Part shown: positions 5,259 to 20,845 of the stretch, in pieces
Layout of the letters: each line of letters starts with the position of its first letter
Numbering within the stretch: position 1 is the stretch's first letter
NCBI GenBank assembly: GCA_903813345.2
Contig: CAIIXF020000002.1
Location: 25,000,455-25,064,454 of the forward strand
DNA: 64,000 bases
Reading direction: 5' to 3'
Origin: Owenia fusiformis
Lineage: Eukaryota; Annelida; Polychaeta; Sabellida; Oweniidae
Notes under the pieces: model-generated
Database searches by the model: none
Seen by the model: only the letters and a program-made list of their open reading frames with translations
What the model was told of the DNA's origin: nothing
Translations under genes and position numbers: made by a program

Positions 5259-5869
5259 ATGTCAGAATTTGTAAATGAAATAGTTTGGGTCCCAATGGAT
5301 GACCGTGCTGTAGGTAATGGCAAAGTGGCATCTGTATATGATAATATTAACTCAAATGAAGACCGAAGTAGTCCATCAAGTTCACAGAATGAAACCCCAG
5401 TGTCTTACGAGGATCTTAATGTTGAAAAGGACAACGATCTTCTATTGAATGGAGGAGCTGATGCTTATCCTATTAATGCTAGTGAAAAGAAAAAACATTC
5501 ACAAGAAGATACTAAACTTGATTTAGAAGAAGATGAACTCGAGGACTTTGAGGATTTAGAGTTCGAACCTAATAAATGTATGCATGGCATCGAAATAGCT
5601 CAAACTGCAATAAGTGGTATTTTTAAGAAATATGGAAAGCATCTTAGGCGGTTTGCCAAATACGGGTTCCTTGTTCTGTTCTTCGTCTATTTTGGGTTCG
5701 CTGTGGCGTATAATCCGACCAAAGCCAAGGCGCTTATCGTCATCACATGTCTCGTTGTTTTGGGTTTTCTATACGGTGAGATAAGAGACAGGTTCGGGGA
5801 AAAAATCTATAACTGTTGCTGCAAACCAATCGAAAAACCTTTATCATCGAAATGGAAATATATCAAATG
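5259..5869 (+). CDS. SLC28A3-like: SLC28 exon 1: cytoplasmic N-terminus and first membrane segments
   Basis: Encodes 203 residues plus two bases of Trp204. The start is the first in-frame ATG. The first 110 residues are hydrophilic, with an acidic stretch (LEEDELEDFEDLEFE), as in vertebrate CNTs. Two hydrophobic helices follow (near 133-150 and 155-170), then a Cys-rich turn (YNCCCKP) and KYIKW. The donor ATG/GTAAGA leaves TG, which is completed by the G at the start of exon 2. Confidence 0.9.
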
Positions 5870-8800
5870 GTAAGAATAAAGGAAAATCGTTGTCAAATTG
5901 TTTATATTTTCGAGTAAATATGTTTGCAATTATTGCTGTTTTCTCAGTTCATATTCAACATGTTATTTACAATCATACTCAAATTCATTCTACTTAATAT
6001 GTTTATAAATAGCGTTCAAATGTTCATTATTTAATAGTTAAAATTGAAGATTGTGATTCGACTAAGTTGATTTACCCACAATTTACAAATGGTATTATAA
6101 ATAAGCATACTTTTGTCACCCCTGCATTCACAATTTTATTCTTATTTTTTTGTTTTATATATTCTGTGGTAATACCTTTGCACCACATGCATTTTATTCT
6201 ATAGGGTCGTTTATATAGCCCTGAGTCTTGTTTCAGCGGGAGGGGTCGTTTATATAGCCCTGATAATATAAATCATAGCCTTCCTTATATTTGATGTGGG
6301 ACGGCAACCAGAACGTCTTGTTTCAGCAGGAGGTTTTGCGTTTCCGTACTTGGTCGAGTTCTTGTTTTAATTGTATATATTCTCTGGTAATACCCTTGTA
6401 CCACATGTATTTTATTCTATAGGGTCGTTTATATAGCCCTGATAATAGAAATCATAGCCTTCCTTATATTTGATGCGGGGCAGCAACCAGAACGCCTTGT
6501 TTCAGCAGGAGGTTTTGCGTTTCCGTACTTGGTCGAGTTCTTGTTTTAATTGTATATATTCTCTGGTAATACCCTTGTACCACATGTATTTTATTCTATA
6601 GGGTCGTTTATATAGCCCTGATAATAGAAATCATAGCCTTCCTTATATTTGATGTGGGGCAGCAACCAGAACGTCTTGTTTCAGCAGGAGGTTTTGCGTT
6701 TCTGTACTTGGTGGAGTTCATGTTTTAGTTTTATATATTCTCTGGAAATACTCTTGTACCACGTGCATTTTATTCTGTAGAGTCGTTTATATAGCCCTGA
6801 TAATAGAAATCATAGCCTTCCTTATATTTGATGTGGGGCAGCAACCAGAACGTCTTGTTTCAGCAGGAGGCTTTGCGTTTCCGTACTTGGTCGAGTTCTT
6901 ATAATTGTATATATTCTCTGGTAATACCCTTGTACCACATGTATCTTATTCTATAGGGTCGTTTATATAGCCCTGATAATATAAATCATAGCCTTCCTTA
7001 TATTTGATGTGGGAAAGCAACCAGAACGTCTTGTTTCAGCAGGAGGTTTTGCGTTTCCGTACTTGGTCGAGTTCTTGTTTTAATTTATATATTCTCTGGT
7101 AATACCCTTGTACCACAAATATTTTATTCTATAGGGTCGTTTATATAGCCCTGATAATAGGAATCATAGCCTTCCTTATATTTGATGTGGGGCAGCAACC
7201 AGAACGTCTTGTTTCAGCGGGAGGCCTTGCGTTTCTGTACTTGGTCGAGTTCTTGTTTTAATTGTATATATTCTCTGGTAATACCCTTGTACCACATGTA
7301 TTTTATTATATAGGGTCGTTTATATAGCCCTGATAATAGGAATCATAGCCTTCCTTATATTTGATGTGGGAAAGCAACCAGAACGTCTTGTTTCAGCAGG
7401 AGGTTTTGCGTTTCCGTACTTGGTCGAGTTCTTGTTTTAATTTATATATTCTCTGGTAATACCCTTGTACCACAAATATTTTATTCTATAGGGTCGTTTA
7501 TATAGCCCTGATAATAGGAATCATAGCCTTCCTTATATTTGATGTGGGGCAGCAACCAGAACGTCTTGTTTCAGCGGGAGGCCTTGCGTTTCTGTACTTG
7601 GTCGAGTTCTTGTTTTAATTGTATATATTCTCTGGTAATACCCTTGTACCACATGTATTTTATTATATAGGGTCGTTTATATAGCCCTGATAATAGGAAT
7701 CATAGCCTTCCTTATATTTGATGTGGGAAAGCAACCAGAACGTCTTGTTTCAGCAGGAGGTTTTGCGTTTCCGTACTTGGTCGAGTTCTTGTTTTAATTT
7801 ATATATTCTCTCACTGGTAATACCCTTGTACCACATGTATTTTATTCTATAGGGTCGTTTATATAGCCCTGATAATAGAAATCGTAGCCTTCCTTATATT
7901 TGATGTGGGGCAGCAACCAGAACGTCTTGTTTCAGCAGGAGGTTTTGCGTTTCCGTACTTGGTCGAGTTCTTACTTTAATTGTATATATTCTCTGGTAAT
8001 ACCTTTGCACCACATGTATTTTATTCTATAGGGTCGTTTATATAGCCCTGATAATAGGAATCATAGCCTTCCTTATATTTGATGTGGGGCAGCAACCAGA
8101 ACGTCTTGTTTCAGCAGGAGGTTTTGCGTTTCCGTACTTGGTCGAGTAATACCCTTGTACCACATGTATTTTATATGTTATGTGGTAATACCCTTGTACC
8201 ACATGCATTTTATTATATAGGGTCGTTTATATAGCCCTGATAATAGGAATCATAGCCTTCCTTATATTTGATGTGGGAAAGCAACCAGAACGTCTAGTTT
8301 CAGCAGGAGGCTTTGCGTTTCCGTACTTGGTCGAGTTCTTATAATTGTATATATTCTCTGGTAATACCCTTGTACTGCATGTATTTTATTCTATAGGGTC
8401 GTTTATATAGCCCTGATAATAGGAATCATAGCCTTCCTTATATTTGATGTGGGGCAGCAACCAGAACGTTTTGTTTCAGCAGGAGGTTTTGCGTTTCCGT
8501 ACTTGGTCGAGTTCTTGTTTTACTTTTATATATTTTGTGGTAATACCTTTGCACCACATGCATTTTATTCTGTAGAGTCATTTATATAGCCCTGATAATA
8601 GAAATCATAGCCTTCCTTATATTTGATGTTGGAAAGCAACCAGAACGTCTTGTTTCAACAGGAGGCTTTGCGTTTCCGTACTTGGTCGAGTTCTTACTTT
8701 AATTGTATATATTCTCTGGTAATACCCTTGTACCACGTGCATTTTATTCTATGGGGTCGTTTATATAGCCCTGATAATAGGAATCATAGCCTTCCTTATA

Positions 8801-11800
8801 TTTGATGTGGGGCAGCAACCAGAACGTCTTGTTTCAGCAGGAGGTTTTGCGTTTCCGTACTTGGTCGAGTAATACCCTTGTACCACATGTATTTTATATG
8901 TTATGTGGTAATACCCTTGTACCACATGCATTTATTATATAGGGTCGTTTATATAGCCCTGATAATAGGAATCATAGCCTTCCTTATATTTGATGTGGGG
9001 CAGCAACCAGAACGTCTTGTTTCAGCAGGAGGTTTTGCGTTTCTGTACTTGGTGGAGTTCATGTTTTAATTTTATATATTCTCTGGAAATACCCTTGTAC
9101 CACATGTATTTTATTCTATAGGGTCGTTTATATAGCCCTGATAATAGAAATCATAGCCTTCCTTATATTTGATGTGGGGCAGCAACCAGAACGTCTTGTT
9201 TCAGCAGGAGGCTTTGCGTTTCCGTACTTGGTCGAGTTCTTATAATTGTATATATTCTCTGGTAATACCCTTGTACTGCATGTATTTTATTCTATAGGGT
9301 CGTTTATATAGCCCTGATAATAGGAATCATAGCCTTCCTTATATTTGATGTGGGGCAGCAACCAGAACGTTTTGTTTCAGCAGGAGGTTTTGCGTTTCCG
9401 TACTTGGTCGAGTTCTTGTTTTACTTTTATATATTTTGTGGTAATACCTTTGCACCACATGCATTTTATTCTGTAGAGTCATTTATATAGCCCTGATAAT
9501 AGAAATCATAGCCTTCCTTATATTTGATGTTGGAAAGCAACCAGAACGTCTTGTCTCAACAGGAGGCTTTGCGTTTCCGTACTTGGTCTAGTTCTTACTT
9601 TAATTGTATATATTCTCTGGTAATACCCTTGTACCACGTGCATTTTATTCTATGGGGTCGTTTATATAGCCCTGATAATAGGAATCATAGCCTTCCTTAT
9701 ATTTGATGTGGGGCAGCAACCAGAACGTCTTGTTTCAGCAGGAGGTTTTGCGTTTCCGTACTTGGTCGAGTAATACCCTTGTACCACATGTATTTTATAT
9801 GTTATGTGGTAATACCCTTGTACCACATGCATTTATTATATAGGGTCGTTTATATAGCCCTGATAATAGGAATCATAGCCTTCCTTATATTTGATGTGGG
9901 GCAGCAACCAGAACGTCTTGTTTCAGCAGGAGGTTTTGCGTTTCTGTACTTGGTGGAGTTCATGTTTTAATTTTATATATTCTCTGGAAATACCCTTGTA
10001 CCACATGTATTTTATTCTATAGGGTCGTTTATATAGCCCTGATAATAGGAATCATAGCCTTCCTTATATTTGATGTGGGGCAGCAACCAGAACGTCTTGT
10101 TTCAGCAGGAGGTTTTGCGTTTCTGTACTTGGTGGAGTTCATGTTTTAATTTTATATATTCTCTGGAAATACCCTTGTACCACGTGCATTTTATTCTGTA
10201 GAGTCGTTTATATAGCCCTGATAATAGGAATCATAGCCTTCCTTATATTTGATGTGGGGCAGCAACCAGAACGTCTTGTTTCAGCAGGAGGTTTTGCATT
10301 CCCGTACTTGGTCGAGTTCTTGTTTTAATTGTATATATTATCTGGTAATACCCTTGTACCACGTGTATTTTATTCTATAGGGTCGTTTATATAGCCCTGA
10401 TAATAGGAATCATAGCCTTCCTTATATTTGATGTGGGGCAGCAACCAGAACGTCTTGTTTCAGCAAGGGTTTTGCGTTTCCGTACTTGGTCGAGTAATAC
10501 CCTTGTACCACATGTATTTTATATGTTATGTGGTAATACCCTTGTACCACATGCATTTTATTATATAGGGTCGTTTATATAGCCCTGATAATAGGAATCA
10601 TAGCCTTCCTTACATTTGATGTGGGAAAGCAACCAGAACGTCTAGTTTCAGCAGGAGGCTTTGCGTTTCCGTACTTGGTCGAGTTCTTATAATTGTATAT
10701 ATTCTCTGGTAATACCCTTGTACTGCATGTATTTTATTCTATAGGGTCGTTTATATAGCCCTGATAATAGAAAGCATAGCCTTCCTTATATTTGATGTGG
10801 GACAGCAACCAGAACGTCTTGTTTCAGCGGGAGGCCTTGCGTTTCTGTACTTGGTCGAGTTCTTGTTTTAATTGTATATATTCTCTGGTAAAACCTTTGT
10901 ACCACATGTATTTTATTCTATAGGGTCGTTTATATAGCCCTGATAATAGGAATCATAGCCTTCCTTATATTTGATGTGTGGCAGCAACCAGAACGTTTTG
11001 TTTCAGCAGGAGGTTTTGCGTTTCCGTACTTGGTCGAGTTCTTGTTTTACTTTTATATATTTTGTGGTAATACCTTTGCACCACATGCATTTTATTCTGT
11101 AGAGTCATTTATATAGCCCTGATAATAGAAATCATAGCCTTCCTTATATTTGATGTGGGAAAGCAACCAGAACGTCTTGTTTCAACAGGAGGCTTTGCGT
11201 TTCCGTACTTGGTCGAGTTCTTACTTTAATTGTATATATTCTCTGGTAATACCCTTGTACCACGTGCATTTTATTCTATAGGGTCGTTTATATAGCCCTG
11301 ATAATAGGAATCATAGCCTTCCTTATATTTGATGTGGGGCAGCAACCAGAACGTCTTGTTTCAGCAGGAGGTTTTGCGTTTCCGTACTTGGTCGAGTAAT
11401 ACCCTTGTACCACATGTATTTTATATGTTATGTGGTAATACCCTTGTACCACATGTATTTTATTCTATAGGGTCGTTTATATAGCCCTGATAATAGGAAT
11501 CATAGCCTTCCTTATATTTGATGTGGGGCAGCAACCAGAACGTCTTGTTTCAGCAGGAGGTTTTGCGTTTCCGTACTTGGTCGAGTTCTTGTTTTAATTG
11601 TATATATTCTCTGGTAATACCCTTGTACCACGTGTATTTTATTCTATAGGGTCGTTTATATAGCCCTGATAATAGGAATCATAGCCTTCCTTATATTTGA
11701 TGTGGGGCAGCAACCAGAACGTCTTGTTTCAGCAGGAGGCCTTGCGTTTCTGTACTTGGTCGCGTTCTTGTCGTCTACAAACCCTTCTAAGGTCAGTACT

Positions 11801-14800
11801 CGCTACATCATTCAGGAACTTCATTTATTTTTGTGTATTAAGCAATGCTAGGAAAAATAACGGATTTATATAATAAAACATTGGTAAAATTTACTATTTT
11901 ATTTGGACGTGTAGTTTGCAAATAATAGGGAGTTTAAGCTTGCAATGTTTTTCAGAAGCAAAACGTGAACAGAAAATATCTAAGCGATGCATTTGTATGG
12001 GCGATACGTATAGGTTGGCATTTTGACTTTATATGCAAGCTTAAACTCCCTAATGACTATTAAAAAATATACTCCAAAATTTTACTTTTCAAAATATTTG
12101 ACTTGGATTCAGGAATTAATTTCTGGATATAAATCTAAGACCAAAATCTGAAAAAATTATATTTGCATGTATTTGACTTGGAACTTGTTATCCTCTTATC
12201 ATAATGGACAAATTGACACGTTATGTGATAAGATTGTTTCTATCATTTTACATCCTTTTATGATTTACTGCCAACTTATTATTACTGAGTGCACCACTAA
12301 ACATGTGTTATATAAATAGTTTGACATGTTACAACCATTAACTTGTACACTTTTAGGTAAGATGGCGCCCAGTATTATGGGGACTTGGACTCCAGTTAAT
12401 ATTCGCTATTATCATCCTGCGATGGCCGGCAGGGTATGTCGCTTTCAAATTCATAGGTATGTAATATGATGAAAGGTACAAACTATAAATGATATAACCT
12501 ATGTAATGCACACCATTCCCTTGATTTTTTTATGTAACAACCGTTTAATATACCTCTAAGAGTATCAATCCATTTAATGCAAAACTATGAATTAATGATT
12601 TTTTTCGCAGGTGACCAGGTGCAAGAGTTTTTAAGTAACAGTGACGAAGGTGCGAAATTTGTGTTTGGCGAAAAGACATACCTTGACCATCCGATTGCTA
12701 TGAAGGTTGGCCCAATCTCAATATGCTTTGATTTTCAAAGGAAATTATACAACATTTATGTTTTTACTCATTTTTATGGATCATTCTTTATGTTAGGATG
12801 CATATGCTCTCCCTTATAGTAAATGACAGTATAACAAACATCCCTGGATGACATGACATTGACTGATATTGAGATGTATATGAACGTTTAATAATTATTT
12901 TATATAACTTTTTCATTTACCATAACGATTGGATTTAATCTTGCATATCTACATTGTAAATGTAGATACACATCCCCATATATATTAAGTCAATGGCACC
13001 CTTGCTGAAATCCTCATTTCGCATGATCAGAAGAACTCACGTTGATCGAGTTTTGGTAGAAACAATTTTCAATACTAAAAATATGAGTTCTTAAACAGGG
13101 CATTGAAGCTTTACTAAGTCCTTTTGAAAGTTTGGGTTAGCTCTACTAATTATAATTGCTTTGATGAAATAGATCATTCCAAAAATGTGCCACTCTGCTG
13201 CAACAAAAACAAGATACTATGGACAGATTTATGCAATGATTTTAAATAGTAATACAAGGTTCCCAAAAAAAGGTTACCTGGTAAAAAATTTAAAAAAAAG
13301 TTTATGACAATTAAATGTTCTGTCATATGGCTAAATTTCAAGCATATTCCTTCATTATTCACAAAGGTTCATCCGTTTATCTCGGGTATAATTGTCTTTG
13401 GACAACCTGTATGATGAACCTTTGTAATTTCAAAAATGTTCGATGGGTATAACCATTATGTCAAATATAATCCAAGTCTCTTGAAATCATCGATATATGA
13501 TAGCATTTATAACAACAACAATTAACCATTCCAATGATTATATATAGTAGCCGAGACAACTCAAGTCCCAAGTCTGTATATTTACTCTCATTTCTTCACA
13601 TTTAAGAGTTAAGTCACCACATTTTGCATACATATTCCCAGGAGAAATCATAACATAGAATTTTATTGGTTTTAATCTTAATTTATTAGTTAAAAATAGG
13701 GAAACATTTGATTTTGATTGGTCTTTAATCAAAATTTGCCATTTTGTAACAAATGCAACATTTTGACGAAATTAATAAAAGTCTACTTTTGATGAAATAA
13801 CTCCAGAATGACCAAATGTTTTCTTATTGAGCACAAATGTTTTAGGTAGTTGAGACATTTCCGAGAAAAATGGTATGCAGAAACATGATATTTTAAATAA
13901 CACGGGTCTAAAAACGACCCCTGAAGATGCCTGCATTATTTGAGATTTTGACCTGGAAAACGGATGGGGTAGGGGAGTGGCATACCTTTTGAGCTTATTC
14001 CAGTTACCATTTTAACTAGAAAAACAGCAACTCCACGGAGTAGCAAATCCCACCGAACGGCAGTTGAGTAACCAAAGATTAAGAAAATGAAAATGAAAAA
14101 TGGCAGCCATTCTGAAGATCAGCCGCCATCTTAAATTTTTTTCTCGAACAGAGCTACTGTGTTTCTAGGCATCAGCATATAAAATTTGAACCGAATCTGT
14201 TCACTGGTATTTGACTTATCAAAGATTACGTTTTTTCTTATGAAAAATGGCTACCATTTTTAAATTCAGCCGCCATCTTGAAAAAAAATTCTTGAACAGA
14301 TCTACTGTGTCCCTAGGTATCATCATATAAAAAATGAGCCAAATCTGTTCACTGGTATTTAAGTTATAAAAGATAACGTTTTTTTACGAAAAATGGCGTC
14401 CATTTTGAAATTCAGCCGCCATCTTGAAAATTCTTTCTCGAACAGATCTCATTTGTCCCTAGGCATCATCATATAAAATTTGAGCCAAATCCGTTAACTG
14501 GTATTTGAGTAATCAAAGATTACCTTTTTTACGAAAAATGGCTGCCATTTTGAATATCAGGCCGCCATCTTGAAAATTCTTTCTCGAACAGATCTATTGT
14601 GTCCCTAGGCATTATCATATAAAATTTGAACCAAATCCGTTCACTGGTATTTGAGTTATCAAAGATTACGTTTTTTTTACGAAAAATGGCCGATATTTTG
14701 ACAATCAGTGGCCATTTCGAAAATCCCATCTTGAGCGAAGCTCCTTTGTCCCTAGGCATAAGCATATAAAATTTGAACCAAATCCGTTCACTGGTATTTG

Positions 14801-17800
14801 AGTTACCAGAGATAATGTTTTTTTACGAAAAATGGCCGCCATTTTGAAATTCAGCGGCCATCTTGAAAATTGTATCTTGAACAGATCTACTGTGTCCCTT
14901 GGCATCACCATATACAATTTGAACCAAATCCGTTCACTGGTATTTGAGTTATCAAAGATTAAGTTTTTTTACGAAAAATGGCGGCCATTTTGATATCTAG
15001 CCGCCATCTTGAAAATTTTTACTCGAACATATCTACTGTGTCCCTAGGCATCAGCATATAAAATTTGAACCAAATCCGCGAACTAGTATTTGAGTTATTA
15101 AAGATTACATTTTTTACGAAAAATGGCGGCCATTTTGAATTCAGTGGCCATATTGAAAATTCCTTCTCGAGCAGAGGTCCTACACCCATAAGGCATAAGC
15201 CTATAAAATTTGAATCAAATCCGTGAAACGGTATTTGAGTTATCGCCCGGACAAACAGTCGGACGGACGGACAGACGGACGGACGGACGGCTTTCCTATA
15301 TCCCTCTCGAACTTCGTTCGGTGGGATAATCAAATGAATGATGACATATTTGGTATCATCTTAAAGCTTGGAATGTGTGCTTCAATTTGGTACCCATATT
15401 ATGACATCAGATGATATATTATGACATCACAGTGGTACCAAACCGACCTTAAATGGAAAAAGAAGCACCAAAATGCGGCAAAATAATGGTGCGACTCCAA
15501 CATATTATTTTGACAATTCAATTGCCACTATCAATGAATCCATTTTTCATTGAGGTACACTTCCAATGCATGATCTGATGACTAGCAAAAAATAACTAAT
15601 ATGATAGTTATTGTCAATAAGATTAGAGACACCATATTGTATCTGTCATTTATAACTTGGAGTTTTATTATTAATAACGTCAAAATGTTGCATTTGTTGC
15701 ACAAAATGGTAAATTTTGATTATAGACCAATCAAAATAAAATGTTTCCCTATTTTTACCAAGTAAATTATAATCAAAACCAACGAAATTCTACGTTAGGA
15801 TTTCTCCAAGGAATTTGCATGCAAAATGTGGCGACTTAACTCTTAAAAGTGAAGAAATGAGAGTAAATATACAGACTTGGGACTTGTGTTGTCTCGGCTA
15901 CTATATATTATTATATTATTTCTTCCCACTAGGTTCTCCCAGTCATAATTTACTTCAGTGCAGTAGCTGCTGTTCTCTACTACTGGGGTGTCATCCAGTG
16001 GATCATAGGCAAAATGGCCTTCATTATGCAATTCACGATGGGTACGACTGCAGTGGAATCGTTCAGCTGTGCAGCTAATATCTTCATTAGCATGGTGAGG
16101 GCTCAGATATATAAAAAATAATATGCTCTTTAAGAGACAATGTCATGAATAAGTCATCTTTCACCCTCATGCGAGTCCTATGTTTATTTGTATGGATTGA
16201 ATTTGACCTTTAATGTTTAAATGTTCACGCCGTGCCTATTTTCATACAGTCCAATCGCATACAATTTGTTTATTTAAATTTTTTTCCAAAACAGTATTAA
16301 ATATGTACATGGAAAATTATGACACGGATATATATTTGATAATTTGGTATTATCATCATTACTGTTAACTTCGTATTATTTGGGAAAATTTTCTTGAATA
16401 CATTGGGAAAAGGTGATCACTAATCTGAAATATACACCATTTTAACTGATATGGAAAAGCATTAAAAGTACTTGGGAGACATTTTGAAAAATGTATGCCT
16501 TTCTGAGTTTAGCATGGCTAACCAAAGTGCAACTTATAATTAATAGAAGAACTCATCTTCAGTATGTCATTACAGATGGAAGCTGCTGTAATGATTAAAC
16601 CGTTTGTCCCCATACTGACTGATTCGGAACTTTTTGCTGTCATGGTTGGAGGAATGACAACAGTTGCGGGGCTTGCCATTGCAATTTATATCGAGTTTGG
16701 GGTAAGAAATTCAAAACAAGGTCCAGCAGTTTACAATTATGTGTATACAATGTGTATACAATGATTTTGTATATATACTATTGTAAACTATATGTTTGAT
16801 CGAATTATATATTAATATATATTAATGAAATTGAATAACTTGAGAAATTGAAAGCCATTTACAGAGTAGTCTTAGTACACCCGCCAACAATAGAACGATA
16901 TTCCGATTGACTATTGAAACTAAGAACATGGAGTTTGAACATCCTTTGCAAAATCTGCTGCATTTATAGGCGCCAGCTCAGCACGTTCTAAGTGCAGCCA
17001 TCATGTCAGCCCCTGCAGCAATGGCGCTGGCAAAGGTGAACTGGCCCGAGACAAAAGTCTCTAAGACAAGGAACGCCAATGATGTGAATCTACCACCTGG
17101 GTAAGACAAATACGAAGTAAAAATTTGTAAAAGTGTGAGTACCATGATCCAACTTTAAATTCTGAAAACTTTGCACAAACTGCGTTCGTGACCAACTATT
17201 GTATACATTGTGTTTTTTTTATCAAATATACCTGTTCATATAGACACGTCGCAAAAAGCTGGCGAATTTATGTTTTTACGGTATCGCATAAATGTAACTT
17301 TAATTCTCTGGAATATAAGATAATAATCGTATTTAAGTTATATATCATTTTAAAGCTGCTTTAATTAAGTTTTTAAATCAAGCACACTTTTTTCACAATT
17401 CTCGTGCGTTCTTTTTTAGAAAGGAGTTTTTAACCTAAAAATCTGCCAAATATCCGCTGTCGACACGTTTCATTTTGAATAATTTTTCGTCTTCAAACGC
17501 TCATAGCTCAATGAATATTTGACTTTATTTTCGTCTTGATAAAGGAAGATGGAAGTGTTATTTCAAAGGATCAATTCTAGTAAGCGTCCCATTTTGTGAC
17601 GTCATATAGTTGAAACATATAATCTGTCGACAGCGACCTTTTTGCTCATTTTTGTTACATTCAACATTTTAAGGTGAACATTAAAGAAAAAATACGAGAC
17701 CAATTTTTAATAAACCATACATGATTATTTTGCTCATAAACTTAAGTTTATCAATAAATAGTTGATTTTGCTCATAAACTCCAGTTTATTAATAATTAAA

Positions 17801-20468
17801 TAGTTGATTTTGTTCGATAACGTATGTCTTTTCTGCTGTATGTGGAAAAGTGGAGGACGAAAGGTTTTCAAAATTCATTGAAATAGGGCGAATTTACGCC
17901 ATTACCTATTTTCAAACACAGCAACACATACATTTATTGGCCCTAACCCATTGTTAATACATATACGATATCAGATTTATTCGCCTTAAACATTTTGATA
18001 TATAGAGGCAAATGTGGAGGACGAAATGATTTCCATATGTGAACATTTTTCTCAAAACGTCACATTCTGTGGCTTTAAAAAGTAAAAATGTGTAACAATA
18101 CTTGCGCGAACTTTTTTGCGACGTGTCATAGGATTTCGCTAGTTGAATAATTTTTTTCTTATTTGTTTTTATGCTCATACATTAACAAGCTGACATGTTT
18201 TGTAATTAGTCGAATACATTTATAAAACGCAGTCAGGGATGACCATTATTTGGTAGTGACATAAAAGGTGTTCATATGTTCATGTTACAGGGTGTTAAAA
18301 ACGCAACCCAAAGAAATCGGTATATCTTCAATAAATACTAATCCAGTAATGTTCATTTTTTCAGGAAAGAAAGAGGAAACTGTTAATGTATTGCTCCTTT
18401 AGTTTATAAGTCGTTAAACATGTTGTCTTGGACACTACACCCCCAATCCGCAACATTATCTTGCAGCGCTGTAAACAGTGCTAAACAGTGCAGTTCGAGT
18501 ACTGCGCTGTACAGCGATGTACAATGCTATTCTAGTATCACCTGTTTTGAACAGCGTAGTACAGTACTGTTTTTACAGCCCTGTACAGTACTGTTTTTGA
18601 AAACAGCGATGTACTGTACTGTTTTTACAGCGCTGTCCAGCACTGTTAAGTAAACAGCGCTGTTTGAGATTGGCAGTGTAGCTCAAAACACATCCGTACT
18701 AGAAAATACGAAAAACACCACCAATTCACCACACATTGAATAAAATAATTTGTGTCAAATCTGAACGGCCAAAACATTATAGTAAGAAAGTTATGCGATT
18801 TTCGTATTTTTCTCATACTAATGTGTTTTGAGCAGGTGTCCAAGGCATTTTGTTACACAACTAACTAGTAACAGTTTCTATACATATAGTCTCCTCTTTC
18901 TTTCCTGAAAAAATGAATACAATTGGATAGGTATTTTCTAAGATAAAGCGATTTCTCTGGGTCGCGTTTTTTGAACACCATGTATAAGAATATGAATTTG
19001 AGGCATTCATACGGAAATCATTTTGGTGATTTATATATTGTATGGATTTATAGGTCAGAGAAGAATTCTTTGGAAGCAGCATCTAATGGCGCAGAGCAGT
19101 CAAAGAAACTCATCGCGACAATAATTGTTGTTCTCATATCGTTCCTTGGCATAGTGTCATTTTTGAACAAATGCCTGTCATACTTTGGTGGCCTTGTCGG
19201 ACATCCAATACTTAGCTTTCAGGTAAAATTACCTTTCCAATAAAACATTTCAATTCGTTCCTAGAAAATACAAATTTTAGTTTAAATACCATTTTAGTTT
19301 AAATACCATTTTAGTAAAATGTGAAATAGTGGTAGACTGCCCGACTAATCGTTCTATTTTTCTAGGAATGATTAAATTATAAGATATGCGGTAATCATCT
19401 AAACTCCATGGCCATGATAGCGGTATTTTTCTAGGATAAACACAAATCAAAAAAATAATGTTTTCTCGGTCATTTCTTGAAAATTATCAATTTCATTGTC
19501 ATAATCTCTTATTGTTTAAACTGTTTTGTAGAACATCTGCAGCTATGTATTTTATCCACTTGCTATCCTCTTGGGATGCGACCCCAATGACGCTGGGAAA
19601 GTTGCAAGTCTCATTGGAATTAAAATATTTGTCCTCGATGCCGTAGCTTTCATGCAACTTGGAGAATACAGAACGCTGCATATAATAACAGTATGTAAAG
19701 TTTATGTTTTAGAAATGTCAAGTTTTGAATAATTAAAGAATTTGACTGTTATATAAAAGCGGATGGCACAAGCGTAATTCAACTATATGTACAGGCCACA
19801 TTTGATATCCCTCCAAAAGTTTTTCTATTTTAGCCCACCTCCCATTTGATAACGTATTACATCCTCTTTATGTTTGACTTTACATCTACATAACCTGTTA
19901 TGAAAAAAGTTTTTTCTTCGCATATTATGCTTATAAGAATTCAAACATAAAAAGAATTCAATGGGGGGGGGGTTAAGTTTGCCAAACTTTTGGAGGGAGT
20001 TATGTACATGCATACTTTCACGTACTTTCTCCAACAGGAACGTTCCGCGATGCTGACCACATATGCTTTGATAGGATGGAGCAACTTAGCCGCAATGACT
20101 GTGTATATGGGTTTGATGAGTACTCTGCTTAGCCCAAAAAGGAAGGGGATATTGACAGTGATCGGACCAAGGGCTATGATAATTTCAAACATGGCGTCCT
20201 TTTCAACTGCTTGCATCGCTGGTAAAAATTATTATTTTTAAAATTTTTCAATTTTACTTCATATAAGATTACCTTCCTACTATATTACTACATATAATAA
20301 TTGTAAACATTTTTTATTACAGGACTTTTACATACGGGTGGAGACGAATATCTAGGTGGACCAGCTGCCAATATCAACTCTACTATGAACACAACTCTAT
20401 TCAACAACACAATTACTAATATAACAACACAGTTACCTGACATTCAGATGGTAACAGGAGAACTTTAA
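5259..20468 (+). CDS. SLC28A3-like: SLC28-family concentrative nucleoside transporter, 11 exons
   Basis: Sodium/proton-coupled nucleoside uptake carrier of the plasma membrane by family. Exons: 5259-5869, 11650-11791, 12357-12456, 12611-12705, 15933-16094, 16576-16701, 16970-17100, 19054-19222, 19532-19690, 20038-20221, 20323-20468. All introns are GT-AG, the phases agree, and the CDS is 2,025 nt (674 residues), close to vertebrate CNT3. The order matches CNTs: acidic N-terminal tail (about 75-105), several membrane segments, WRPVLWGLGLQ (254-264), TMGTTAVE, the HP1 motif (371-377), LEAASNGA (462-469), the GWSNLAAM helix (578-585) and a C-terminal tail rich in N-x-S/T sites, fitting an extracellular end. 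Several positions usually conserved for substrate binding are changed, so specificity may be altered. Exon 2 sits at the end of a large array of its own partial copies. Confidence 0.93.
6150..11791 (+). repeat. 179-bp tandem array built from partial copies of SLC28 exon 2 (about 31 units)
   Basis: Unit starts recur about every 179 bp (for example near 6421, 6600, 6780, 6957, 7136), up to the genuine exon 2. Each unit holds about 50 bp of intron 1 (CTGGTAATACCCTTGTACC and the acceptor TATTTTATTCTATAG) followed by the first 120 or so bases of exon 2, coding V-x-YIALIIGIIAFLIFDV and ERLVSAGGFAFLYLVEF. All upstream copies stop soon after (FLF-stop) and lack the SSTNPSK end and the GTCAGT donor. 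Some carry a TAA in the helix (near 6261 and 6981). The first copy (about 6172-6240) has an internal deletion. Variant units with a shortened join (TCGAGTAATACC) recur at roughly 8147, 8870, 9769, 10495 and 11395. Confidence 0.9.
11650..11791 (+). CDS. SLC28A3-like: SLC28 exon 2, the only spliceable copy
   Basis: One base completing Trp204 plus 47 codons, from VVYIALIIGIIAFLIF to LSSTNPSK. Acceptor ATTCTATAG/G, donor AAG/GTCAGT. It differs from the upstream decoys by Ala in LVAFL (decoys have Glu, LVEFL) and by retaining the last seven codons and the donor. The encoded membrane segment and PERLV turn match the equivalent CNT region (LIFD-x-x-x-RPE-x-L in vertebrates). Confidence 0.9.
11926..12052. 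mobile_element. Small MITE in SLC28 intron 2
   Basis: Perfect 19-bp terminal inverted repeats: TAGGGAGTTTAAGCTTGCA at 11926-11944 and its complement at 12034-12052. 127 bp in all, no coding capacity. Confidence 0.6.
12357..12705 (+). CDS. SLC28A3-like: SLC28 exons 3 and 4
   Basis: Exon 3 (12357-12456) encodes VRWRPVLWGLGLQLIF and the helix ending at GYVAFKFI. A split Gly285 joins it to exon 4 (12611-12705), encoding DQVQEFLSNSDEGAKFVFG and ending HPIAMK. Donors are GTATGT and GTTGGC; acceptors are TTTTAG and TTTCGCAG. The GLGLQ and FVFG motifs are CNT hallmarks and fix the frame. Confidence 0.9.
13541..15907. mobile_element. 2.4-kb foldback element in SLC28 intron 4
   Basis: Inverted arms of about 250 bp (13541-13790 and 15660-15907), with tips TATATAGTAGCCGAGACAAC and its near complement ending CTACTATATA. 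Matching short frames in the two arms (containing KCGDLTLK and NIQTWDL) are mirror images of each other, not genes. The right tip ends only 25 bp before exon 5, so the element supplies sequence next to the branch-point region. The interior carries a second, satellite-bearing element. Confidence 0.6.
14047..15327. mobile_element. Pearl/CvA-like element with about eight core repeats
   Basis: Left end ATCCCACCGAACG (14047-14059) is the exact inverse of CGTTCGGTGGGAT (15315-15327). Between them lie about eight tandem copies of a roughly 147-bp core (marker GTCCCTAGGCATCA and AAAATGGCGGCCATTTTG), from about 14095 to 15245, then a (GGAC)n microsatellite (15249-15290) and a CGAAC-TTC-GTTCG hairpin. 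Core repeats, then an ACGG microsatellite, then a 3' hairpin is the layout known for bivalve pearl/CvA elements, thought to be Helentron-related. No protein encoded. Confidence 0.6.
15933..17100 (+). CDS. SLC28A3-like: SLC28 exons 5-7: transport core, first half
   Basis: Exon 5 (15933-16094) encodes VLPVIIYF through MQFTMGTTAVESFSCAANIF. Exon 6 (16576-16701) begins MEAAVMIKPF, the HP1 site that is usually TEAPLLI in animal CNTs: the Glu is kept but the Thr and Pro are replaced. It continues VMVGGMTTVAGLAIAIYIEFG. Exon 7 (16970-17100) encodes SAAIMSAPAAMALAKVNWPE and a hydrophilic loop ending PPG (split Gly456). Exons 5 and 6 end in phase 0 and exon 7 in phase 2. Introns 5 and 6 contain nothing recognised. 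Confidence 0.9.
17243..18127. mobile_element. 885-bp inverted-repeat element in SLC28 intron 7
   Basis: Terminal inverted repeats GACACGTCGCAAAAA (17243-17257) and TTTTTTGCGACGTGTC (ending 18127). The similarity extends weakly inward for another 15 bases or so. No transposase frame; interior AT-rich. Confidence 0.5.
18288..18981. mobile_element. Nested foldback element in SLC28 intron 7
   Basis: Diverged inverted arms (18288-18431 and about 18834-18981) share GGTGTT, ACGCAACCC / GGGTCGCGT and an almost exact TTTTTTCAGGAAAGAAAGAG block. A second, inner inverted pair (about 18675-18720 and 18790-18835, CTCAAAACACAT) lies inside. The arm block looks like a splice acceptor plus GKERG-coding sequence, where vertebrate CNTs have GKER before LEAASNG, so the element may have captured exon sequence. 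It ends about 70 bp before exon 8. Confidence 0.5.
18465..18670. repeat. Cluster of ACAGCGCTGT / ACAGTACTGT palindromes
   Basis: In about 200 bp the 10-bp self-complementary motif ACAG-N-N-CTGT and close variants recur more than ten times, often joined by TTTTT or AAAA spacers. It occupies the loop of the surrounding foldback element. Confidence 0.7.
19054..20468 (+). CDS. SLC28A3-like: SLC28 exons 8-11: transport core, second half, and C-terminus
   Basis: Exon 8 (19054-19222) carries LEAASNGA (HP2, Glu463 kept); the usual TNVAANLIAF stretch that follows in vertebrate CNTs is replaced by IATIIVVLISF. Exon 9 (19532-19690) encodes NICSYVFYPLAILLG and the GIKIFVLDAVAF helix. Exon 10 (20038-20221) has GWSNLAAMTVYMG: the Asn matching the substrate-binding Asn is present but the following Ser positions are Ala. 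Exon 11 (20323-20468) encodes a tail with NST, NTT, NNT and NIT sequons, then TAA. All junctions are GT-AG. Confidence 0.9.
19808..20000. mobile_element. Short MITE in SLC28 intron 9, related to the 3520-4385 element
   Basis: The right end, reversed, reads ACTCCCTCCAAAAGTTTG, then a poly-C run and CATTGAA, matching the arm of the element at 3520. The left end is TCCCTCCAAAAG. TA dinucleotides flank both sides. It stops about 38 bp before exon 10. Confidence 0.5.
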
Positions 20469-20501
20469 ATATAATTCCTGATTGAGCGTACATTAGGTAT
20501 T

Positions 20502-20845
20502 CAACGGATTTGAAATGCAGATGCATACATGATAAAATGATTAGGGTTTGATGATAATGAAATCAAACCTTGTACAGATCCCGTATCCAACGGATTTGAA
20601 ATGCAGATGTGTACATGATAAAATGATTAGGGTTCGATGATAAGGAAATCAAACCTTGTACAGATCCCGTATCCAACGGATTTGAAATGCAGATATGTAC
20701 ATGATAAAATGATTAGGGTTTGATGATAATGAAATCAAACCTTGTACAGATCCCGTATCCAACGGATTTGAAATGCAGATGTGTACATGATAAAATGATT
20801 AGGGTTCGATGATAATGAAATCAAATCTTGTACAGGTCCCGTTGA
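20502..20845. repeat. 86-bp tandem repeat, four copies, just after the SLC28 stop
   Basis: Copies start CAACGGATTTGAAATGCAG at 20502, 20588, 20674 and 20760, an exact 86-bp period with few changes. Each copy contains an inverted repeat GGTTTGAT ... ATCAAACC able to form a hairpin. The array begins 34 bp after TAA, so it probably lies in the 3' UTR. Confidence 0.85.

Follow-up and report, generated by a model that had tools for sequence, protein, structure and literature searches.

Mirages are tandem repeats whose unit spans an exon-intron junction of the gene that contains them, and were described for the Adh3 gene of amphioxus (Canestro et al., 2002, NAR 30:2871, as reported in a later citing paper, PMC3087553). 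The amphioxus globin genes BflGb6 and BflGb9 also carry mirages (PMC3087553), as do amphioxus TnC and PGBD5 (PMC3902484). Results of reverse-transcription polymerase chain reaction suggested that regular splicing is undisturbed by the repeats of amphioxus Adh3 and the globin genes (PMC3087553), and mirages were proposed by the same authors to be a source of new introns (PMC3087553; PMC3902484). Here, a comparable array is described from the annelid Owenia fusiformis. It lies in a stretch of 64,000 nucleotides (the window; assembly GCA_903813345.2, contig CAIIXF020000002.1, positions 25,000,455 to 25,064,454 of the forward strand), where it occupies intron 1 of an SLC28/CNT transporter gene, and it is very probably an unusually long mirage, that is, a minisatellite with a unit lying across an exon-intron junction.

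Like the amphioxus mirages, the array contains AG/GT splice signals in many but not all of its repeats, leaves the authentic gene intact, and appears to have homogenised inner units. Unlike them, it belongs to an annelid, comprises 31 decoys in 5.5 kb as compared with 3–6 units in BflGb6, and includes multi-unit higher-order blocks. The sequence-only reading of this DNA had held that such exon-derived satellites are rarely described; this was half right, mirages having been known in amphioxus since 2002 and being present in several other genes of the O. fusiformis genome as well. The array also resembles internal tandem repeats in the genes of human segmental duplications, which are minisatellites of variable copy number at exon-intron boundaries that can create alternative splicing or new introns (PMC2812944). 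However, the repeats of the human paralogues have units of ~30 bp in ~4 copies and are supported by RNA, whereas the present unit is long and read from genomic sequence. A third likeness is to decoy or poison exons such as the decoy exon of OGT (PMC12017769), cryptic intronic exons that could engage the splicing machinery and cut productive mRNA. These are regulated and have been demonstrated experimentally; the copies described here are predicted from genomic sequence and show drift-like variation.

Anatomy of the array and its host gene

Tandem Repeats Finder (TRF) reported a single array at 6243–11771, with a period of 179, 30.7 copies and a 90% match. Anchoring on the exon start resolved it into 31 partial copies plus the authentic exon 2, so that the mirage as parsed and aligned extends over 6150–11649 on the forward strand, with a modal unit of 179 bp. 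The decoy exon starts are located at 6205, 6244, 6423, 6602 and onward to 11282 and 11471, spaced by 176–189 bp except after the first copy, which is truncated to 39 nt (6205–6243), retains an intact acceptor and continues into copy 2. Alignment to the end of intron 1 and to exon 2 showed that the unit crosses the boundary between them: it consists of the terminal ~58 nt of intron 1, acceptor included (...TATTTTATTCTATAG|GGTCGTT), and of ~121 nt from the start of exon 2, whose full length is 142 nt. This share of the exon is 85%, larger than the two thirds originally read. Each unit passes straight into the intron piece of the next one, without the final 21 nt of the exon and its donor, and among all copies the exon 3' end and the donor AAG|gtcagt are found solely in authentic exon 2. 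The array is far above chance, with 36 matches in the window to a 21-nt piece of the unit versus 0 expected. A DNA search found no other copies of the 179-bp unit elsewhere in the genome, making it specific to this locus.

Self-comparison revealed a higher-order structure within the array. A block of 1046 bp at 8187–9232 occurs again at an offset of 901 with 98.9% identity, the duplication as a whole covering 8187–10133 on the forward strand, and similar multi-unit blocks pair 8378–8928 with 10905–11455 and 6902–7454 with 7259–7811. Overall, these blocks are 98.9–99.5% identical, and such near-identical multi-unit blocks suggest recent turnover.

The host gene lies on the forward strand and was modelled manually as 11 coding exons (5259–20468) with GT-AG introns throughout and one uninterrupted frame of 674 amino acids. 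All three CNT Pfam domains were found in the product, and its PDB matches are SLC28-type (E ~1e-121), the best of them being Na+/nucleoside cotransporters and human SLC28A3-type chains. Coding exon 1 (5259–5869) ends in phase 2 at the donor ATG|gtaagaat. Intron 1 (5870–11649; 5.8 kb) is nearly all array, and authentic exon 2 (11650–11791; 142 nt), with the donor given above, closes it. Exons 3–6 (12357–12456, 12611–12705, 15933–16094 and 16576–16701) and exons 7–11 (16970–17100, 19054–19222, 19532–19690, 20038–20221 and 20323–20468) were placed by the open frame, Pfam and PDB relatives. Thus, the authentic exon and its frame are kept at the edge of the array. The tandem exon-derived array inside an intron of its own transporter gene is real, as judged from TRF, the anchoring and the intact 11-exon CNT gene, and its anatomy (a copied exon start, one complete last copy, stops in frame) is as the sequence-only reading had it. 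On these anatomical features, together with the distribution of splice signals described below, the array is classed as a mirage.

Splice signals, reading frames and variation of the decoys

Splice sites were scored with a simple position matrix of general, vertebrate-type frequencies, which are not those of annelids. A usable AG acceptor is present in 28 of the 31 decoys, with scores of 4.1–6.7; authentic exon 2 scores 6.4, a value equalled in 16 decoys, and the remaining acceptors of the gene range from 2.1 to 10.4. The AG is replaced (ATGG) in copies 16 and 21, and the acceptor of copy 2 stands in a poor context; apart from these three, the view that every unit carries a good 3' splice site was borne out. 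Donor-like sites of the form CTG/GTG|gtaat(a) or gtaaa(a) occur in 26 of the 31 units (6384 to 11613, forward strand), ~143 nt into the copy and ~36 nt before the next acceptor. They score 3.3–4.5 versus 3.4–10.3 for the ten authentic donors of the gene, among which exon 2 scores 8.6, exon 9 3.4 and exon 10 4.5. The best is that of copy 27 (exon end at 10887), whose 9-mer is identical to the authentic exon-10 donor. The units had been thought to lack both the exon end and a 5' splice site. The former is indeed missing, but the G|GTAA sites match the weakest authentic donors of the gene, and most units could in principle act as complete poison exons of ~143 nt.

Most decoys translate as VVYIALII..LVSAGGFAFPYLVEFLF-stop. 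The ending LVEFLF-stop, previously attributed to the units in general, is absent from copies 2 and 6 (9 codons, then a stop), 12, 16, 21 and 30 (stop at GAG|TAA), 14, 19 and 28 (open for 60 amino acids) and 25 (frameshifted). At sites where most decoys carry F, P and E, authentic exon 2 has L, L and A, and the aligned CNT paralogues have no proline at the position of the decoy P. When inclusion of decoys was modelled, nearly all cases hit a premature stop, with products of 203–288 amino acids. Every modelled ~143-nt cassette, from the acceptor to the G|GTAA site, gives an early stop, and replacement of exon 2 by a decoy truncates the product in every case. An exon reaching from the acceptor of decoy 31 to the authentic donor would be 321 nt long with an in-frame stop. 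As a separate observation, copies 12, 16, 21 and 30 have a further and much weaker donor-like site, CGA|gtaata (8145, 8868, 9769 and 11395), that would delimit a cassette of 114 nt, adding 38 amino acids in frame for a product of 712; two of these four copies, 16 and 21, are those in which the acceptor is gone.

Is the variation among the decoys that of drift or of selection? The comparison of silent with replacement changes that had been proposed as a check was carried out on 30 aligned decoys over 108 nt. It yielded 24 distinct single-site alleles, 15 of which change a residue (14) or create a stop (1) and 9 of which are silent; with an expected silent fraction of 0.25–0.27 (p 0.13–0.26), this is compatible with drift at low power. 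In-frame stops within the first 108 nt were found in 2 copies versus 2.4 expected under drift, and three of the 31 decoys have lost their acceptor or have a poor one, as drift allows. Segregating sites make up 16 of 39 positions in the intron part and 27 of 113 in the exon part (p 0.06), a difference that is suggestive at most and that conversion with the authentic exon could explain. Conservation of splice signals above drift was not observed, the variation of both acceptors and exon part being compatible with drift, again at low power. The variation is thus drift-like, and the decoys appear to be neutral. Together with the near-identical multi-unit blocks, it is what a minisatellite evolving by unequal exchange would show.

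Origin of the array and alternative explanations

How could such a layout have arisen? The motif TTGT is present at both breakpoints of the unit, at 6150 in the intron (55 nt before the exon start) and at 11768 in the exon (118 nt into exon 2). The founder would have been a single tandem duplication, probably between these two microhomologies, that took the acceptor and the exon start. Because TTGT is common to both breakpoints, one tandem duplication accounts for the sole complete last copy; and with the right-hand breakpoint falling within exon 2, no copy but the last could have the exon end or the strong donor, so that selection for decoys is not needed to explain their layout. Unequal exchange would then have multiplied and partly homogenised the copies, by single-unit as well as multi-unit steps. 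In splicing, the strong exon-2 donor AAG|gtcagt most probably selects the last acceptor through exon definition. The array would then leave as an ordinary intron, with decoy use low at most; on our analysis, some low-level use is probable.

Several points weigh against this account of a splicing-neutral mirage. Normal splicing past the decoys is something that we infer for this gene, and acceptors about equal to the authentic one combined with moderate donors make aberrant inclusion of decoys plausible at some rate. The scores behind that comparison come from the non-annelid matrix. The test of silent against replacement changes has little power, and nucleotide diversity is somewhat lower in the exon part (pi 0.043) than in the intron part (0.093), a possible sign of constraint or of gene conversion involving the authentic exon.

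These signals would suit a rheostat of poison exons, in which ~143-nt cassettes or alternative acceptors are spliced appreciably and copy number lowers the transporter via nonsense-mediated decay or truncation. The 28 acceptors and 26 moderate donors, and the premature stop in nearly every modelled inclusion, speak for it; yet splice signals and frame show no conservation, the decoy donor (4.2) is far weaker than that of exon 2 (8.6), and amphioxus mirages with similar signals apparently left splicing undisturbed. We consider such a rheostat improbable, and tuning of expression by copy number, as the sequence-only reading envisaged, is likewise unlikely. The broader proposition that junction-spanning minisatellites serve genome-wide as length-variable splicing modifiers, with arrays of decoy acceptors or donors and in-frame stops tying transporter output to copy number, is judged quite improbable.

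Assembly of tandem arrays is error-prone, and the locus might truly hold one or few copies. The graded differences, shared variants and nested higher-order blocks are unlike collapsed or stuttered reads, however, and comparable arrays occur in several genes, making an artefact very unlikely, although the number of copies may not be exact. With its acceptor-bearing, exon-like units in tandem, the array also recalls a cluster of the Dscam type, in which one copy is chosen instead of exon 2, and four copies (12, 16, 21 and 30) could contribute the 114-nt cassette in frame. A cluster of this kind is extremely unlikely: the exon 3' end is absent from all decoys, the frame closes in most copies, replacement of exon 2 truncates the product in all modelled cases, and P and E would be placed in a membrane segment. 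In such a cluster, every copy would bring a donor of matching phase and stay open, which is not the pattern of these decoys.

Junction-spanning arrays elsewhere in the genome

The mirage reading was extended to the regions around the CNT paralogues and to eight SLC6 gene regions of the same genome. A protein search found no exon-2 arrays in the CNT paralogues, each of which has a single exon 2. A recently duplicated CNT pair on the reverse strand (L066/L067; C5:17492500-17500500 and 17544500-17552500) carries an acceptor-side mirage of 54 bp, composed of the acceptor and the first ~23 nt of an exon, with 18 and 16 decoys preceding the authentic exon. This unit equals 18 codons and its main copies are free of stops, and retention or use of an upstream acceptor would add in-frame blocks of 18 amino acids. 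Another CNT gene on the reverse strand (L068; C6:2732500-2741000) has a donor-side mirage of 73 bp, consisting of the exon end, a strong donor (CAG|GTAGGC) and ~28 nt of intron, with 8 decoy donors behind the authentic donor. Junction-spanning arrays were found in two of the eight SLC6 regions: ~4 short copies of an acceptor plus GAFLIPYA (L076; C2:28508026-28508159), and an older donor-side array (~81%) of the GGLIGLASYN exon (L075; C6:5611821-5612209). Further arrays in these CNT and SLC6 genes make no contact with an exon. In these CNT genes, a unit placed at random would cover a junction ~18–34% of the time, so that neither a particular force nor an attraction of arrays to junctions is needed to explain them. 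With regard to array length and unit similarity, multi-unit blocks are 99% identical at the present locus and the C5 paralogues differ by 18 versus 16 decoys, values taken from one genome assembly.

Several other repeats were noted. An ENT-family locus (PF01733) contains a 52-bp repeat in 2.4 copies with ATTACAG|GGTG, possibly a small junction repeat (L080, 847–973). In the SLC28/CNT gene itself, intron 4 harbours a 146-bp tandem array of 7.9 copies at 14095–15244 (GAAAAATGGCGGCCATTTTGAAA...) that is not exon-derived, and an 86-bp repeat in 4 copies (95%) lies right behind the stop codon at 20497–20842, presumably in the 3' untranslated region. Farther along the window, 31500–62700 is a large field of 476-bp and 133-bp arrays, ATCCT-rich repeats and 19-mers (CTTATTCTGGATGACTCGG) whose order recurs in the manner of a composite satellite. 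No RNA families were found within the window. Elsewhere, C6:27033687-27048438 holds an erythrocruorin-linker-like gene cluster with three PF16915 matches (best E 5e-7), a marker of annelids. Searches for the GFP family, which a lancelet would be expected to have, and for the mollusc haemocyanin domain gave no matches, although the control genomes gave none either; on the GFP result a lancelet is unlikely. Mitochondrial COX1 likewise had no match.

What is new in the present mirages is the annelid phylum, the scale of the intron-1 array (31 decoys in 5.5 kb) and the fact that several transporter genes carry them. Mirages had been described as possibly general in cephalochordates; that several occur in an annelid, one of them with 31 decoys, suggests that spliceosomes more broadly tolerate large numbers of nearly identical splice sites in competition. 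Since 28 usable, near-identical acceptors open onto the same exon start and face one strong donor, what guides correct splicing must be exon definition or the terminal 21 nt of exon 2, and the locus is a natural test of splice-site choice. The proposed role of mirages in intron gain likewise becomes testable outside chordates.
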